NCBI RefSeq assembly: GCF_030542965.1
Contig: NZ_JAUAOA010000005.1
Span: 62,001-126,000, forward strand
DNA length: 64,000 nt
Origin: Azotosporobacter soli
Lineage (GTDB): Bacteria; Bacillota; Negativicutes; SG130
Direction: 5' to 3'
The position numbers and the translations under genes are program-made. Under the pieces are notes generated by a model. It had not been told where the DNA came from. It worked only from the letters and a program-made list of their open reading frames with translations, and ran no database searches. This document shows, piece by piece, positions 5,440 through 62,482 of the stretch. Position 1 is the first letter of the stretch. Each line of letters begins with the position of its first letter.

Positions 5440-6525
5440 ATGGGTGAACAACCTTCACGCCAGTCGCGCAAGTTAGACCACCTGCATCATGCGTTGGAAC
5501 TGCCTGATGGTCCGATATCCGCCGGTTTTTCTGATATTCATTTAATTCACAACTGTCTGCCCTCCATAGATTGGCAGGAGATTACACTTGAAACAAAACT
5601 GCTCGATTGGACTTTGCCGCAACCACTTCTTTTAAACGCCATTACCGGCGGCGCAGAAGACGTTCTCTCCGTCAATGGACTGCTGGCGACTTTTGCAGCA
5701 AAAACCAAAATGCCGATGGCAGTAGGCTCGCAGTATGCGGCACTCGAAGACAGCCATTTTATTGAATCCTATCGAATTGTCCGCAAAAAAAATCCAGACG
5801 GAATCATCTTTGCCAACCTTGGTGCGCATGCCAATGTGAAACAGGCCGAGCTTGCAGTCAAAATGCTTGAAGCACAGGCGCTGCAAATTCATTTGAATCC
5901 GGCCCAAGAACTGCTGATGCCGGAAGGAGATCGCGATTTCAGTCGTTACCTGAATAACATTGCTGAAATCGCCGCTGCATTGGCAGTTCCGGTCATCGTA
6001 AAAGAAGTCGGTTTCGGAATGGCGCGCGAACAAGTCAGAGAATTGCTTTCCACCGGAATTCGGGCAATTGACATCGGAGGCGCTGGCGGCACCAATTTTG
6101 CGGCCATTGAATCAAGCCGCCAATATCCTCAACCACACGAAGATTTTTTACGCTGGGGAATCCCTACCGTAATCAGCGCCGTAGAAACATTACAAACCGT
6201 CTCTGACAAACTTCCCGTCATCGTTTCCGGCGGCGTGCGCACACCGCTTGATGCGGTCAAGGCTTTATCGCTCGGCGCTGCCTCCGTCGCACTTGCGACG
6301 CCTTTTTTGCAACAAATACTGCAAGAAAGCATTCAAGAAACATATCAAACATTCCAACGCTTTCTCCATGATATGAAGACAATTATGCTGTTGACCGGCG
6401 CGAGCAAACCGCAGGGCCTAACGCAAAAACCGTTGATCATCAGCGGTTTTTGCGCCGAATGGCTCAAGCAACGGGGCTTTTCACTGCACGGTTATGCCAA
6501 TCGCACTACGCTTGCTATTGACTAA
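5440..6525 (+). CDS. fni: Type 2 isopentenyl-diphosphate delta-isomerase
   Basis: FMN-dependent enzyme (IDI-2) that interconverts IPP and DMAPP, the products of IspH encoded just upstream. Family features: RKLDHLHHAL near the N-terminus, LLLNAITGGAEDV (FMN-barrel entry), VIVKEVGFGM, the glycine-rich DIGGAGGTNFAAIE phosphate-binding loop around residue 210, and IVSGGVRTPLDAVKAL. About 361 residues, slightly longer than the usual 330-350. ATG lies 2 bases after the ispH-rpsA stop, with GGAG inside the end of that gene, so the two are co-translated. Because IspH already gives both isomers, this enzyme balances the pool. Confidence 0.95.
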   Translation: MGEQPSRQSRKLDHLHHALELPDGPISAGFSDIHLIHNCLPSIDWQEITLETKLLDWTLPQPLLLNAITGGAEDVLSVNGLLATFAAKTKMPMAVGSQYAALEDSHFIESYRIVRKKNPDGIIFANLGAHANVKQAELAVKMLEAQALQIHLNPAQELLMPEGDRDFSRYLNNIAEIAAALAVPVIVKEVGFGMAREQVRELLSTGIRAIDIGGAGGTNFAAIESSRQYPQPHEDFLRWGIPTVISAVETLQTVSDKLPVIVSGGVRTPLDAVKALSLGAASVALATPFLQQILQESIQETYQTFQRFLHDMKTIMLLTGASKPQGLTQKPLIISGFCAEWLKQRGFSLHGYANRTTLAID

Positions 6526-6561
6526 AGGCATAACTTTTCTCATAATAGATATGATGGCGGT

Positions 6562-6592
6562 ATAGAGAGTGGTGTTCTTCATCACTCTCTAT
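6562..6592 (+). terminator. Long hairpin after fni, weak U-run
   Basis: ATAGAGAGTGGTG (6562-6574) pairs with CATCACTCTCTAT (6580-6592) with one G.T, loop TTCTT. It is followed by CTGTTTGTTTGG rather than a clean U-tract, so it may be a terminator or an mRNA stabiliser. Confidence 0.6.
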
Positions 6593-6642
6593 CTGTTTGT
6601 TTGGTAAAACGTCAAAATTTGAAAGAAGTGAGGTGTTCCCCT

Positions 6643-7953
6643 ATGAGTCCCCAGGGCATTATTTCCAAGGTCCATCCTGATAGTTTGGGAGAAGAGATTG
6701 GGCTGGCGGCTGGTGATCGCCTTTTAAAAGTAAATGATCAAAACGTTTCTGATATTATTGATCTCAGCTTTGCCTTGGCTGATGAATATCTCGAACTGCT
6801 CATTGAAAAATCGAATGGCGATCAAGAAATTATCGAACTTGAAAAAGAATATCACGAAGACTTAGGCGTCGAATTTGAAAGCGCAGTCTTTGATTCGGTT
6901 CGCCGTTGCGCAAATCGTTGCGTTTTTTGCTTTGTCGATCAAATGCCGAAAGGAATGCGAGAAAGTTTATATGTGAAAGATGACGATTATCGTTTGTCTT
7001 TTCTGTATGGTAATTTTGTAACCTTAACGAATTTGACGCCGAAAGACATGCAGCGGATCCAGTCGTTCCATTTAACACCGCTTTACATATCGGTTCATGC
7101 GACCGATCCTGAAGTACGTTCCAGCCTGCTTAACAACAAGAATGCCTCCCGACTTCCGGATCAGCTCAAAGAATTGATTGATGCAGGAATCGAACTGCAT
7201 ACGCAAATCGTCCTCTGCCCGGGTTTGAATGACGGCGACGTCCTTGAGCAGACGCTTGGCGATCTGTATAAGCTCAAACCGTCCGTCCTCTCTGTCGCCA
7301 TCGTACCGGTAGGCTTGACGCAATATCGCGACGACTGCCCTGAACTGGAAACCTTCAACGCCGAATCGGCCAAACACGTCATCCAGCAGGTTGAAGCATG
7401 GCGAAGCAAGTGTCGCGAGCAAAGCGGCGATTCCTTTATCCATTTGGCGGATGAATTTTATCTGATGGCCGGCATTGATTTACCTCCAGCCGCACATTAC
7501 GACGGCTTTCCGCAGTTGGAAAACGGCGTCGGCCTGGTTCGCTCCTTTCTCGATGACTGGCAGGAAACGCTAAGACAAAAGCAACCTGCACCTTATGCTA
7601 CGCAGCGCGTAATCGACGTCGTCTGCGGCATGTCAGCAGCGAAGGTTCTCACTCCGTTACTGGACGACCTCAGCGTGCCAAACCTGCTGCTTCGACTGCA
7701 GCCGGTCGCTAACCGTTTCTTTGGTCCGAAAATTACTGTTAGCGGATTGTTGACTGGTAGTGATATACTGGATTCATTACCGCCTTGCGAAAATCGCGAC
7801 GGTATTATCATTCCTGGCGTTTCGTTGCGCAAAGGAGAAAGCGTCTTTTTGGACGGCATGACGCTGGAGGAACTGTCAAGCAAGCTAAACAGCAAAGTCT
7901 ACCCAGCCTATTCGGCACAAGAGCTTCATACTTTGTTGACTGCCTGGAGGTAA
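6643..7953 (+). CDS. DUF512 family PDZ / radical-SAM-like protein
   Basis: 436-residue cytosolic protein with an N-terminal PDZ-like domain (IISKVHPDSLGEEIGLAAGD, residues 5-60). A cysteine cluster RRCANRCVFCFVDQMPKGMR (about residues 86-105, CX3CX2C spacing) typical of radical-SAM [4Fe-4S] binding follows. The C-terminal DUF512 region holds MSAAKVLTPLL and a GLLTGSDIL motif. ATG at 6643 is chosen because GAGGTG stands 8 bases before it; an in-frame TTG 42 bases upstream lacks a site. The family is widely conserved, usually next to der as here, but its reaction is not known to me. Confidence 0.88.
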   Translation: MSPQGIISKVHPDSLGEEIGLAAGDRLLKVNDQNVSDIIDLSFALADEYLELLIEKSNGDQEIIELEKEYHEDLGVEFESAVFDSVRRCANRCVFCFVDQMPKGMRESLYVKDDDYRLSFLYGNFVTLTNLTPKDMQRIQSFHLTPLYISVHATDPEVRSSLLNNKNASRLPDQLKELIDAGIELHTQIVLCPGLNDGDVLEQTLGDLYKLKPSVLSVAIVPVGLTQYRDDCPELETFNAESAKHVIQQVEAWRSKCREQSGDSFIHLADEFYLMAGIDLPPAAHYDGFPQLENGVGLVRSFLDDWQETLRQKQPAPYATQRVIDVVCGMSAAKVLTPLLDDLSVPNLLLRLQPVANRFFGPKITVSGLLTGSDILDSLPPCENRDGIIIPGVSLRKGESVFLDGMTLEELSSKLNSKVYPAYSAQELHTLLTAWR

Positions 7954-39564: not shown

Positions 39565-39608
39565 AAAGAAGGGCGATTGCTTTATAATGAAGCGGTCGCC
39601 CTTCTTTT
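39565..39608. terminator. Terminator at the strand-switch junction
   Basis: AAAGAAGGGCGA (39565-39576) pairs with TCGCCCTTCTTT (39596-39607), with an inner GCTT/AAGC helix. A's and T's flank both sides, so it can end korC (+) and the recombinase (-). Confidence 0.88.
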
Positions 39609-39616
39609 GTTATTGC

Positions 39617-40606
39617 CTAAAACATTTTATTTAGCGGATTATCTTTAAACAAGTTCCCTTGCTCAATATAGCGTCTCACCATTTTTTCTGATTTATGGCG
39701 CGTTTGCTGCATTATTGAACGTTCATCAATATCATATTGAGCCGCACTTGTCGCAAAACCACGCCGCAGACTATGACCTGCAAAGTAATTGGGATTTAAG
39801 CCTGCAAGTTTTGCATACTTTTTTACAATGATTGCCACAGACTGATTCGTTAATCGACTATTCCTTATTTGCTTATGCTTATTTAAAGGACGGAAGAGGG
39901 GACCTGCAATCAAGTGCGCTTCTTGTATCCAGCTATTTAATGCCCTCACTGCACAAATATCAGGATTTGAACAACTATAGGGGATTGCAACTTGCTCACC
40001 TTGTCCTTCTTGGTCGCCTTTAGAATGTGCTAAAAAAACAACTACTCCATCAGGCGTAAAGTTTAAATCCTCAAGGTCAATCCCTACTAATTCCGAACGT
40101 CTAAACGCTCCCATAAAACCTAATAATAGTAAGGCTTTATCTCGAATACCAGCAATGTCATTGCAATCAAAATGGAGTGAAATATTTCTCAAATCATCCG
40201 CTAAAATTGGAGCTTTACCGCGTTGAAGAGTGCCATATTCGCGTTTTATAGCATCTAACGCATTGCGAACAAGACCAGTACGGCAAGGATTATTATTGAT
40301 AAAGCCTGCCGATTTGTGATTTTCTGAAATAGCACTCAAACGGCGTGATACCGTATTCGCTTTGGCATGATCAGCCAGGTCGTTAATATAATTAACAATT
40401 GTTTCTGGCTCAGAGGGCAATATTTTAAGCTTATGGTGCGTGCACCAATCATAATAATCATTCCAGTCGGCCTCATAGGCGCGCAAGGTGTTTTCAGCTT
40501 TAGATTTCTGCAAACGTTTTTTACTTTTTACTGAAAGCTTATCATTATTTTCGACTAATTTATTATTGCGAAGCAGAAAATCCTTGTTTTGTCGGTTCAT
40601 AATCAC
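39617..40606 (-). CDS. Solitary tyrosine recombinase/integrase
   Basis: 329-residue site-specific recombinase. Residues about 35-125 form the SAM-like core-binding domain (ENTLRAYEADWNDYYDWC). The catalytic domain shows all usual residues: R169 (AFRRSELVG), K196 (AHSKG), H278 and R281 (HSLRRGFATS), H304 (QTRHKSEKM) and nucleophile Y313 (VRRYIEQGN). So it should be active. GTG at 40604-40606 or ATG at 40598-40600, with AAAGGAG upstream. No excisionase, transposase or phage gene adjoins. It is shorter than XerS or XerH but of similar layout; XerC/XerD (about 300 residues) are also near in size. Lower GC than neighbours by eye. Confidence 0.92.
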   Translation of the reverse strand: MIMNRQNKDFLLRNNKLVENNDKLSVKSKKRLQKSKAENTLRAYEADWNDYYDWCTHHKLKILPSEPETIVNYINDLADHAKANTVSRRLSAISENHKSAGFINNNPCRTGLVRNALDAIKREYGTLQRGKAPILADDLRNISLHFDCNDIAGIRDKALLLLGFMGAFRRSELVGIDLEDLNFTPDGVVVFLAHSKGDQEGQGEQVAIPYSCSNPDICAVRALNSWIQEAHLIAGPLFRPLNKHKQIRNSRLTNQSVAIIVKKYAKLAGLNPNYFAGHSLRRGFATSAAQYDIDERSIMQQTRHKSEKMVRRYIEQGNLFKDNPLNKMF

Positions 40607-40628
40607 AGTTTCTCCTTTAAAAAAACGT

Positions 40629-40663
40629 CTAACTAGTGATAACTATAAATTATCGTTAGTTAG
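40629..40663. other. dif-like inverted repeat upstream of the recombinase
   Basis: CTAACTAGTGATAA (40629-40642), centre CTATAAA, TTATCGTTAGTTAG (40650-40663); arms match at 12 of 14 positions. The inner ATAA-n7-TTAT resembles the layout of Xer dif sites (11-bp arms, 6-8 bp centre). It overlaps the recombinase promoter, so it could also be an operator. Confidence 0.5.
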
Positions 40664-40670
40664 AAATCAA
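40642..40670 (-). promoter_or_regulatory. Promoter of the recombinase gene
   Basis: - strand TTGATT (40670-40665), 17-base spacer, TATAGT (40647-40642), 36 bases before the start codon. The inverted repeat 40629-40663 covers the spacer, -10 and start region. Confidence 0.6.
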
Positions 40671-41040
40671 GACTAAAATATTATTATTATTAAACCTCGG
40701 TTTTTCATGATTCGGCAGATTCGCCGTCTGAACTTATCGTTGTATGTTTTAGGGGCTATCATAGCATGACATCATTTTTTCTGTACGATTAAGTGTAGCC
40801 TATCAGAGACGCCTATATCAAAATAAACTTACGCAGCACGACAGGATACAGGCTATTTGTGGCCCATCACGCTACTAAATAAAAAACAGGCAAAGGAAAA
40901 ACGTACAATAAAAACTGCCTTCGATCGTCTCAATTCTGATTTTGAAATGGCTCCATTTGCCAGCAACAGAGCTATTTTAAAATTTACGCATTTTTTTCGG
41001 AGCTAAGAGTTTCACCCCACCCTTGACTTTACATAAATAA
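40671..41040. other. AT-rich stretch without a recognisable gene
   Basis: About 370 bases with no convincing reading frame, tRNA or repeat. Only weak dyads are seen (for example TAGCCTATC near 40797 and GATACAGGCTA near 40845). It could be decayed DNA left by the event that placed the recombinase here. Confidence 0.5.
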
Positions 41041-41058
41041 AATTATCAGACGTCAATT

Positions 41059-41373
41059 CTATCGAGTTCCATTTATTGCAACGCGACAGGGAACTTTCAA
41101 TTGTTGTCCAGGATATAAACTAATTTCTTTGCCTAATAATTGATTTGCTTCACGTATATCATAAATTACATTTCGTATGTCTTGATCATTTTTCATATGT
41201 TGTTTGGCGATCTTCCATAAAGAGTCACCCTCTTCCACCGTTACAATTATTATATTTTTTTCCTCACCCTTTTGTTCATTATTGCTAAAACCCGTCATAA
41301 AAAAAACTGCCACGATGCAAAGAATTAAAACAAGCACCAGTCTTTCCTTATTTCTGCATGAATACCGCTTCAT
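41059..41373 (-). CDS. yneA: LysM protein, YneA/SosA-like SOS division inhibitor
   Basis: 104-residue protein with one N-terminal membrane segment (LVLVLILCIVAVFFMTGF) and an extracytoplasmic LysM domain (VEEGDSLWKIAKQHMKND ... YPGQQLKV). This layout and size match Bacillus YneA, which delays septation during the SOS response and is likewise divergent from lexA. A perfect LexA box lies between its promoter and its start. GGGAGG precedes the ATG. Assignment rests on architecture and place, because LysM proteins are widespread. Confidence 0.82.
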   Translation of the reverse strand: MKRYSCRNKERLVLVLILCIVAVFFMTGFSNNEQKGEEKNIIIVTVEEGDSLWKIAKQHMKNDQDIRNVIYDIREANQLLGKEISLYPGQQLKVPCRVAINGTR

Positions 41374-41409
41374 TTCAAATACCTCCCGTCAAAGAACTAA
41401 AATCAAATG

Positions 41410-41423
41410 CGAACATACGTTCC
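41410..41423. promoter_or_regulatory. LexA (SOS) box 1
   Basis: CGAACATACGTTCC matches the Gram-positive consensus CGAACRNRYGTTYC at every position. It lies downstream of the yneA-like -10, where bound LexA would block transcription. Confidence 0.92.
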
Positions 41424-41433
41424 TTTTCTTTTA

Positions 41434-41462
41434 ATTTTATGCGTATTCAAAAACTTTGTCAA
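41434..41462 (-). promoter_or_regulatory. Promoter of the yneA-like gene
   Basis: - strand TTGACA (41462-41457), 17-base spacer, TAAAAT (41439-41434). Confidence 0.8.
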
Positions 41463-41469
41463 GTTTTTC

Positions 41470-41483
41470 CGAACATTTGTTTG
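41470..41483. promoter_or_regulatory. LexA (SOS) box 2
   Basis: CGAACATTTGTTTG has two mismatches to the consensus. It touches the lexA -35, suggesting weaker self-repression of lexA than of the yneA-like gene. Confidence 0.7.
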
Positions 41484-41509
41484 CTTTTTTCTCGATGAAT
41501 TGCTATAAT
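41481..41509 (+). promoter_or_regulatory. lexA promoter
   Basis: TTGCTT (41481-41486), 17-base spacer, perfect TATAAT (41504-41509), 43 bases before the lexA ATG. Confidence 0.8.
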
Positions 41510-41551
41510 TTAAAGTAATTCATTGAATTTATGCTAAGGGAGAACGTTATT

Positions 41552-42181
41552 ATGCAAGCTCCAATTAAACTTAGTCCACGGCAGCAACAAATTTTAGATT
41601 ACATCAAGGAAAATCTGCGTGCTAAAGGTTATCCCCCCTCAGTTCGTGAAATAGGTGCTGCTGTCGGCCTTAGTTCAAGTTCAACCGTTCATAACCACTT
41701 ATCCAAATTAGAAACATTAGGTCTGCTCCGCCGTGATCCAACAAAACCCCGCGCCATCGACGTCACCGATACTCTCTCTTGGTGGCATAACGAAGATGTT
41801 GTCCCTGTTCCGATGCTCGGAAAAGTGACGGCCGGTCAACCTATTTTAGCGGTTGAAAATATTGAAGAAACTCATGCCATGCCAAAATCATTACTGGGTT
41901 CTACTGCTGCTGACCGAATTTTTATGCTCGAGGTCAAGGGTGATAGTATGGTTAATGCAGGCATCTTCAGCGGTGATTATGTTTTGGTTCGCGAACAATC
42001 TACCGCTCAAAACGGCGATATTGTTGTAGCATTACTAGACAGTGAAGAGGCAACAGTAAAGCGTTTCTTTAAAGAAAAGGAGTATGTTCGCCTACAACCG
42101 GAAAATGACAGCATGGCACCAATCTTTACCCGCAACATCCAGATCCTGGGTAAGGTCATGAGTCTATATCGGAATATCTAA
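41552..42181 (+). CDS. lexA: SOS repressor LexA
   Basis: Represses DNA-damage genes until RecA filaments trigger self-cleavage. Winged helix N-terminus (LSPRQQQILDYIKENLRAKG; SSSSTVHNHLSKLE recognition helix), cleavage site Ala-Gly in GKVTAGQPI, catalytic Ser in GDSMVNAG and Lys in ATVKRF. 209 residues, usual. ATG at 41552 with AAGGGAGAA upstream; an earlier in-frame ATG at 41531 overlaps that site and is rejected. The only + strand gene in the right part. Confidence 0.97.
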   Translation: MQAPIKLSPRQQQILDYIKENLRAKGYPPSVREIGAAVGLSSSSTVHNHLSKLETLGLLRRDPTKPRAIDVTDTLSWWHNEDVVPVPMLGKVTAGQPILAVENIEETHAMPKSLLGSTAADRIFMLEVKGDSMVNAGIFSGDYVLVREQSTAQNGDIVVALLDSEEATVKRFFKEKEYVRLQPENDSMAPIFTRNIQILGKVMSLYRNI

Positions 42182-61972: not shown

Positions 61973-62482
61973 TTATTTATTAAAAACCAGCACCCGACCT
62001 TCTTCGCGAATTCCAATCAGTCCCTGACCTCCATAGTTGCTCTTGATGCTGTTCAACATATTCTCAATTAATTCTTCATGAAACCCTGCTTCTTCAAGCT
62101 GCTGTTCTACGATATCCGAGACTAACAGGCCTTGAATCTGTTCACGCAAAATCGTAACCAGCAAAACAATTTCACTTTTACTAATTGTTGCAACATCACG
62201 TTCCACGTTCAGAACGGTTAGCTTCCCCTCGAATTCAAGCTGGATGTTGCAGAGCAGCGGTCGAACTTTCACCAGTTCATAAAACGCAGCCAATGATTCT
62301 TCTAAGAAATTCACACGCAACATTTCCTCGTCGGCCAACTGTAGAAAAAGAAATTTCATCGTTATCGAATTTCGCCGTGGTTCAAAAGCCAGACTTGCAA
62401 TTTCCGGATAACGGACTAGCAAAGACACTAACAAATTCACCCCATCCGAAGCAAATTCATCGTTTTGCATGTATGAAGGCAT
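61973..62482 (-). CDS. Unrecognised protein between ymdB and rny
   Basis: 169-residue protein with no family I recognise. N-terminal two thirds mix beta and helix (ITMKFLFLQLADEEMLRVNF), hydrophobic but without a membrane segment. The C-terminal third is helical and amphipathic (LVSDIVEQQLEEAGFHEELI) with a final basic strand IREEGRVLVFNK. ATG at 62482 is chosen because GAGGTG stands 6 bases before it; a longer frame would run into the rny terminator. Its place inside the rny-ymdB group suggests an RNA-linked or sporulation role, unproven. Confidence 0.75.
   Translation of the reverse strand: MPSYMQNDEFASDGVNLLVSLLVRYPEIASLAFEPRRNSITMKFLFLQLADEEMLRVNFLEESLAAFYELVKVRPLLCNIQLEFEGKLTVLNVERDVATISKSEIVLLVTILREQIQGLLVSDIVEQQLEEAGFHEELIENMLNSIKSNYGGQGLIGIREEGRVLVFNK

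Follow-up and report, generated by a model that had tools for sequence, protein, structure and literature searches.

A Cre-family tyrosine recombinase and a lox-like site as a probable chromosome dimer resolution module at the replication terminus of Negativicutes

Introduction

Reliable cell division requires the resolution of chromosome dimers. To our knowledge, the XerCD/dif system is considered close to universal, and the exceptions are a small number of single-recombinase systems (XerS, XerH, XerL and XerA). The canonical system employs two recombinases, XerC and XerD, at an asymmetric site of 28 bp, of which 6 bp form the centre. In XerS/difSL of streptococci and XerH/difH of Helicobacter and Campylobacter, one recombinase is paired with a site that lies beside its gene at the terminus. 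The arms of difSL and difH are imperfect and unequal, and their centres measure 11 bp or 6-10 bp (PMC5357621). XerL/dif of the Legionellales also couples a single recombinase to a terminus site with long uninterrupted palindromic arms, and gene and site may be far apart (PMC9765430). Outside the Xer systems, Cre/loxP of phage P1 and Dre/rox of phage D6 combine one recombinase with a palindromic site near its gene. Finally, Pelagibacter ubique (SAR11) was reported in 2009 to be without a dif/Xer system, and no evidence was seen for loxP/Cre-like substitutes in such bacteria (PMC2731167).

The locus described here lies in a stretch of 64,000 nucleotides from Azotosporobacter soli (Negativicutes; positions 62,001 to 126,000 of contig NZ_JAUAOA010000005.1), referred to as the window, whose numbering is used unless contig coordinates are stated. 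It encodes a lone tyrosine recombinase with an inverted repeat upstream of its gene. A preliminary description proposed a single-recombinase Xer/dif-like module, an idea that is supported by the conservation of the site, by its position at the terminus and by a prediction made for two other genomes (G138 and G116). The module is very probably a chromosome dimer resolution system that consists of one Cre-family tyrosine recombinase and one lox-like terminus site and corresponds in function to Xer/dif. It would constitute a further exception to XerCD/dif, one that concerns a large bacterial class with gut, oral and environmental members and draws on a different recombinase lineage, that of Cre. 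No description of this system was found in the open-licence literature.

Several features are shared with the systems named above. The proposed function is that of XerC/XerD/dif, and a canonical dif-like site adjoins the module in transitional genomes, but one recombinase takes the place of two. XerL/dif, compared here by description only, is alike in its single recombinase, its arms and its terminus site and belongs to another host lineage. Cre/loxP and Dre/rox are alike in fold class, side of the tree, single recombinase and nearby palindromic site, whereas the pair considered here resides on the chromosome and, in many genera, has a fixed place at the replication terminus.

A complete tyrosine recombinase of the Cre lineage

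The recombinase gene (39617-40606, minus strand) encodes 329 amino acids from a GTG start, with an alternative ATG at 40600, and its product contains PF00589 and an N-terminal SAM-like domain. The residues taken as catalytic (R169, K196, H278, R281, H304 and Y313) are all present and are invariant in 25 of 25 homologs, which bears out the early view of a catalytically complete enzyme on the minus strand, and a single copy is maintained through the lineage. Between the gene and the convergent upstream operon there is a hairpin with 16/18 arms (39566-39608), a probable bidirectional terminator.

An AlphaFold model of the recombinase (mean pLDDT 83) has its nearest solved folds among Cre complexes (Z about 25), followed by XerH and XerA (18.8), the integron integrase (17.7) and XerD (14-15). 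In the tree, the recombinase shares a clade with plasmid recombinases and Cre/Dre to the exclusion of XerC/XerD (support 100/99); branching within this clade is unresolved, and the Cre/Dre branch is long. By its predicted fold and its place in the tree, the recombinase is of the Cre lineage, with 18-20% identity to Cre in structural alignment. Scores on the NCBIfam models are far below their cut-offs, at 46.7 bits against 267 for XerS (NF003462) and, for the XerC and XerD equivalogs (TIGR02224 and TIGR02225), at 50.3 and 64.8 bits against 335.15 and 329.6, and XerH is absent among the phmmer hits of the recombinase. The likening to XerS and XerH in the preliminary description holds for the arrangement, a single recombinase with a dif-like site at the terminus, but probably not for the lineage, and neither the XerS score nor the lower Z of XerH compared with Cre supports membership of XerS/XerH. 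A phage integrase with att sites was rejected, as the genome has no second site and phage matches are only 24-32% identical.

Homologs were surveyed in 60 sampled genomes of the class Negativicutes at E <= 1e-20, and then by profile in 250 genomes of the class, each at least 90% complete. They were found in 30 of the 60 (44-79% identity) and in 123 of the 250. Named relatives within the class include Sporomusa (80-81%), Anaerospora, Selenomonas, Anaerovibrio, Mitsuokella, Schwartzia, Veillonella, Megasphaera, Dialister and Negativicoccus, and homologs outside it occur in Alicyclobacillus, Paenibacillus, Acidobacteria and Pelagibacteraceae.

A conserved palindrome upstream of the gene

The predicted terminus recombination site spans 35 bp (40629-40663), with arms at 40629-40642 and 40650-40663 and a 7-bp centre at 40643-40649. 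On the plus strand it reads CTAACTAGTGATAA-CTATAAA-TTATCGTTAGTTAG, so the centre is TTTATAG in the orientation of the gene. Renewed measurement agreed with the preliminary description that the 14-bp arms match at 12 of 14 positions around the centre and that the repeat lies 22 bases from the GTG start. Symmetry alone is insufficient as evidence for a site, because the window contains six inverted repeats of like quality with a 7-bp gap against 0.15 expected from local shuffling, and at least one of these is the hairpin directly 3' of the recombinase gene. In the comparisons that follow, it is conservation rather than symmetry that gives the palindrome its significance. The sequence pattern of the site occurs once in the window, against 0 in 100 shuffles, and the rest of the genome contains no mismatch-free copy, the one further match having three mismatches. 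A pattern scan of the whole genome found no second site, no att duplication and no inverted pair of sites.

A palindrome of matching architecture is present directly upstream of many homolog genes, and a like architecture adjoins homologs that are 43-81% identical in Sporomusa, Anaerospora, Veillonella, Megasphaera, Dialister, Negativicoccus, the Pelosinus-like family and SAR11. From 60 distinct versions of the site, a consensus half-site of WTWACTTCCGATAA with 7-bp spacing was obtained, around a centre that is asymmetric, A/T-rich and variable. The arms co-vary by lineage, being ACTTCCGATAA/TTATCGGAAGT in Anaerospora and Veillonella and CAATATACGATAA/TTATCGTATATTG in the Pelosinus-like family; the labels Pelosinus-like (f6), Selenomonadaceae-like (f12) and Sporomusa (f23) were given from named relatives and family structure. 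The centre is TTTATAG in the window's group and CGATATA, CGTTAAA, TTTAATG or others elsewhere, and since it varies between genera, it is not retained as a -10 box. A CTTCC-type site occurs in 96 of the 123 recombinase-positive genomes compared with 6 of the 127 recombinase-negative ones (p about 5e-36, a value overstated because related genomes are not independent, while the pattern recurs in many families). Among the 27 recombinase-positive genomes without this type, several have other arm types and some more are close relatives of those. Across Negativicutes, SAR11 and plasmids, the repeat is conserved alongside the recombinase.

The predicted site has the make-up of a lox site, with palindromic arms of 13-14 bp and a short asymmetric spacer. 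Compared with the loxP arm, as confirmed in P1 records, the arms ATAACTTCCGATA of related genomes agree at 11 of 13 bases and the window's own arms at 8 of 13. The loxP spacer is 8 bp, while that of the window site is 9 bp if the arms are taken as 13 bp. In contrast to difSL and difH, the arms here are near-perfect and the centre is 7 bp.

As the preliminary description also stated, the repeat in the window genome overlaps a putative promoter on the minus strand (40642-40670), which has a -35 element TTGATT (40670-40665), a 17-bp spacer and a -10 element TATAGT (40647-40642). A site-bound recombinase would cover this putative promoter. The arms and spacing of the 35-bp sequence are conserved beyond the promoter boxes, and in Pelosinus-like relatives and at locus L029 the promoter-like pair, by inspection, apparently lies upstream of the site and not over it.

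Fate of XerC, XerD and dif

Canonical Xer proteins were counted at E <= 1e-50, and a second copy was called intact when it scored above the NCBIfam cut-off. In the 123 recombinase-positive genomes, 99 have no canonical Xer, 15 have one and nine have two, and in the 127 recombinase-negative genomes the corresponding numbers are 63, three and 61. An intact second canonical Xer was found in 3 of 123 genomes with the recombinase versus 60 of 127 without it (Fisher p about 3e-18, overstated for the reason given above). In genome G013, the Cre-like recombinase is the sole PF00589 protein. FtsK-gamma is present in all 21 of the 21 genomes tested. Additionally, 63 of the 250 class genomes (G046, G056, G011, G038 and others) have neither the Cre-like recombinase nor canonical XerC/XerD and may use yet another resolution system; G056 encodes a tyrosine recombinase of 337 amino acids at about 47% from dnaA.

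Whether xerC and xerD exist elsewhere in the window genome, a point raised in the preliminary description, has a mixed answer, and a normal XerC/XerD/dif set, which that description named as evidence against its idea, is present here in part. The xerD gene (L001) is intact and stands in a nudix-xerD context, and a canonical XerCD dif-like 28-mer, ACGTCTGATAA-TTTTAT-TTATGTAAAGT, is located 379 bp from the palindrome (41026-41053, minus strand). However, the xerC gene (L002, G000:C7), between trmFO and codY, is eroded: its product does not reach the cut-offs for XerC, XerD or the subfamily, and the His of its HxxR box is replaced by Gln. The 28-mer is degenerate as well, with an XerD-type half near consensus, a diverged XerC-type half and centre, and eight mismatches in a scan for canonical dif, a number equal to that of shuffles. 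Related 28-mers with the XerC-type half TCCGATAA occur within about 1.2 kb of the site in Sporomusa, Anaerospora and three other genomes (G014, G029 and G036), and a better-preserved example near the module reads GAGTCCGATAA-TATATA-TTATGTAAAGT. In G004, G017, G031, G039, G138 and G116, neither the surroundings of the module nor the terminus showed such a 28-mer. Because relatives have comparable 28-mers next to the module, that of the window is a probable remnant of the ancestral dif, and the replacement of XerCD/dif in this genome looks recent or incomplete. The form nnGTCCGATAA-TATATA-TTATGTAAAGT was seen at L057, L058, L073, L037, L038 and L041, and the XerC-type half TCCGATAA resembles the palindrome arms.

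These remains bear on the alternative that, in the window genome, the module is a co-resident and perhaps mobile Cre-type element beside dif, with XerD and the diverged XerC resolving dimers at the 28-mer. The intact xerD, the persistence of a diverged xerC and the proximity of the 28-mer are all compatible with it, and genomes G094, G106 and G118 hold intact XerC and XerD beside the Cre-like module, so in some hosts, the window genome with its xerD and dif-like 28-mer included, the module is not the sole candidate. The erosion of XerC and of the XerC half and centre of the 28-mer argues against such a division of labour, as does the observation that module-bearing relatives are mostly without XerC and many also without XerD; nor is there a second site or att duplication in the genome. 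A co-resident element is rather unlikely in this genome.

Under the dimer resolution reading, we infer that the module was established beside dif, that XerC and dif then decayed and that XerD was lost thereafter; the presence of the module would have allowed these losses, of XerC, then dif, then XerD. It is reasonably probable, on present comparisons, that a plasmid-type Cre/lox-like module captured beside dif replaced XerC/XerD/dif in most Negativicutes, that a relative did likewise in SAR11, and that intermediates, the window genome among them, survive with both sites a few hundred bases apart. Such intermediates, which hold the two sites side by side, would show how one essential system displaces another. 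At locus L037 (about 6318-7139, G036:C41), the terminus carries, immediately upstream of the site and of the Cre-like gene, a gene for a divergent XerC-like tyrosine recombinase, which may have inserted there.

Position at the replication terminus

The GC-skew change point and coding-strand switch, taken as the replication terminus, fall at 40797-40810, the upper value being obtained from the window and the lower from 166 kb of the contig (C5). In the window alone, the change point at 40810 was found blind to the palindrome, and 0 of 2000 block permutations reach it. In contig coordinates, over the 166 kb, the change point is at 102797 and the palindrome centre at 102646, 151 bp apart (0/1000). 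Left of the terminus, coding bases on C5 amount to 81.2 kb on the plus strand versus 4.0 kb on the minus strand, and right of it to 0.66 kb versus 55.6 kb, so that the strands converge at the site.

Among 18 complete genomes, with dnaA taken as the origin and six chromosome lengths given to the nearest 0.1 Mb only, the distance from dnaA to the site is 50.6 +/- 2.6% of the chromosome length. At 1280215 in G080, or 49.8% from dnaA, it is consistent with a terminus position. In G023, the skew reverses its sign somewhere from 2572 to 2602 kb, an interval that includes the site (2587 kb) but neither the geometric antipode (2691 kb) nor xerD (2702 kb). The preliminary description had allowed that the gene might be confined to a few strains at varied loci with att duplications; instead, the family is found at the skew switch.

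Two genomes, G138 and G116, have a recombinase gene without an adjoining site, 240 and 225 kb from the skew switch, and it was predicted in advance that a lone site would be found at the switch. Each yielded one qualifying palindrome. That of G138, the only one in 427 kb, is at 1346505, where the skew differs in sign between the 2.5-kb bins that begin at 1343.5 and 1346.0 kb, and that of G116, the only one in 447 kb, is at 1012780, with the sign change at about 1009.9 kb. Both are within a few kb of the switch, which is the resolution of the skew profile. In Selenomonadaceae-like genomes, the site stays at the skew switch while the gene is 168-240 kb away, and the assumption that the gene itself is always at the terminus is wrong for these genomes, where it is the site that is. 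The site provides a simple sequence mark of the terminus in draft genomes.

These distant sites weigh heavily on the view, offered as an alternative in the preliminary description, that the palindrome is an operator only, through which the recombinase or another regulator represses a gene that is an integrase relic. The good -35/-10 pair over the repeat in the window genome would suit an operator, but a site kept at the terminus far from the gene, a centre that is no -10 box in most genera and the intact active site of all examined homologs have largely refuted this view, and it is now highly unlikely. It is also very improbable that the module owes its terminus position merely to synteny inherited together with lexA and other genes close to the terminus. 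At many loci and in many families lexA is only a few genes away from the recombinase, and synteny therefore contributes to gene position there, but other families and SAR11 have different neighbours with the same strand convergence, and the site is unmoved where the gene has moved.

In the window, lexA (plus strand) faces a gene for a small LysM protein (minus strand) at 41059-42181, an arrangement like lexA/yneA, and between the two are the LexA-box-like sequences CGAACATACGTTC (41410-41422) and CGAACATTTGTTTG (41470-41483).

Proposed mechanism and origin

By computation, the basis for a dimer resolution role is the conservation of recombinase and site, their terminus position, the loss of an intact XerC and the Cre-like fold; catalysis, the use of FtsK, the order of loss and the plasmid origin are what we infer. 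In the proposed mechanism, two recombinase monomers would bind the two arms of the site. Sister chromosomes fused by an odd number of crossovers would be the substrate, and both copies of the site would be brought into contact by FtsK at the septum. In the resulting synapse of four monomers, Tyr313 would cut where the asymmetric centre of roughly 7 bp meets the arms, and strand exchange via a Holliday junction would yield two monomeric chromosomes. The asymmetry of the centre would set the polarity of the site. In the window genome, binding would additionally cover the gene's own promoter and so could provide autoregulation.

The most plausible source of the module is a system for the resolution of plasmid multimers, from which it would have been inserted beside dif. 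Plasmid-borne 'site-specific integrases' of Alicyclobacillus, Paenibacillus, Sporosarcina and Chromobacterium are 37-47% identical to the window recombinase, and palindromes of the GATAA-n6/7-TTATC type lie upstream of several plasmid relatives (Alicyclobacillus, Sporosarcina and Chromobacterium), some of them beside toxin-antitoxin genes. These similar palindromes and toxin-antitoxin neighbours suggest that the module derived from plasmid multimer resolution. That it serves plasmid multimer resolution, or phase variation, with the chromosomal site incidental, is scarcely credible even with such close plasmid-borne relatives and with several sites beside another tyrosine recombinase in some genomes, given that genomes mostly have one chromosomal site, which in complete genomes is always near the dnaA antipode, and that the window genome has no inverted site pair. 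Together, the lineages that carry the module would be a source of many natural Cre-like recombinase/site pairs with differing specificities.

A related module in SAR11

Six single-cell genomes of Pelagibacteraceae encode a homolog 43-44% identical to the window recombinase, which is their only PF00589 match; these genomes are incomplete, and the absence of XerC/D from them is suggestive only. The SAR11 site, TACTAATGATAA-ttaattg-TTATCAATAGTA, is 26 bp upstream of the gene (L119-L125), and genes converge at it. In the three contigs examined, the cumulative-skew maximum falls within 2 kb of the site, while the strongest change point of the longest contig is away from it. A relative of the recombinase probably has the same un-linking role at the terminus in SAR11, judging from the sequences, and this would offer a testable answer for a group described as without dif/Xer.

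Additional sites and recombinase copies

Some genomes carry several sites. At L267, L269, L271 and L272 (G201, G215, G165 and G072), extra sites whose 7-bp centres are different adjoin a second tyrosine recombinase of about 312-316 amino acids, which is very divergent. On the far side of the extra site at L267 there is a large sensor histidine kinase, with an RmuC gene upstream. Extra sites at L268, L270 and L278 are located between a gene of 309-311 amino acids and one of 511-512 amino acids; at L268, Pfam gives no match for either flanking gene, and the next gene encodes a PfkB-family kinase. Two sites with different centres, 5.7 kb apart, flank an MFS transporter gene at L273 (G194:C1:2278326 and 2284054), a pair that is possibly an integrated element using the site. 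Furthermore, G027 and G010 each encode two divergent copies of the Cre-like recombinase, and in G027 the copies are ~6 kb apart on opposite strands, with the terminus site ~40 kb off.
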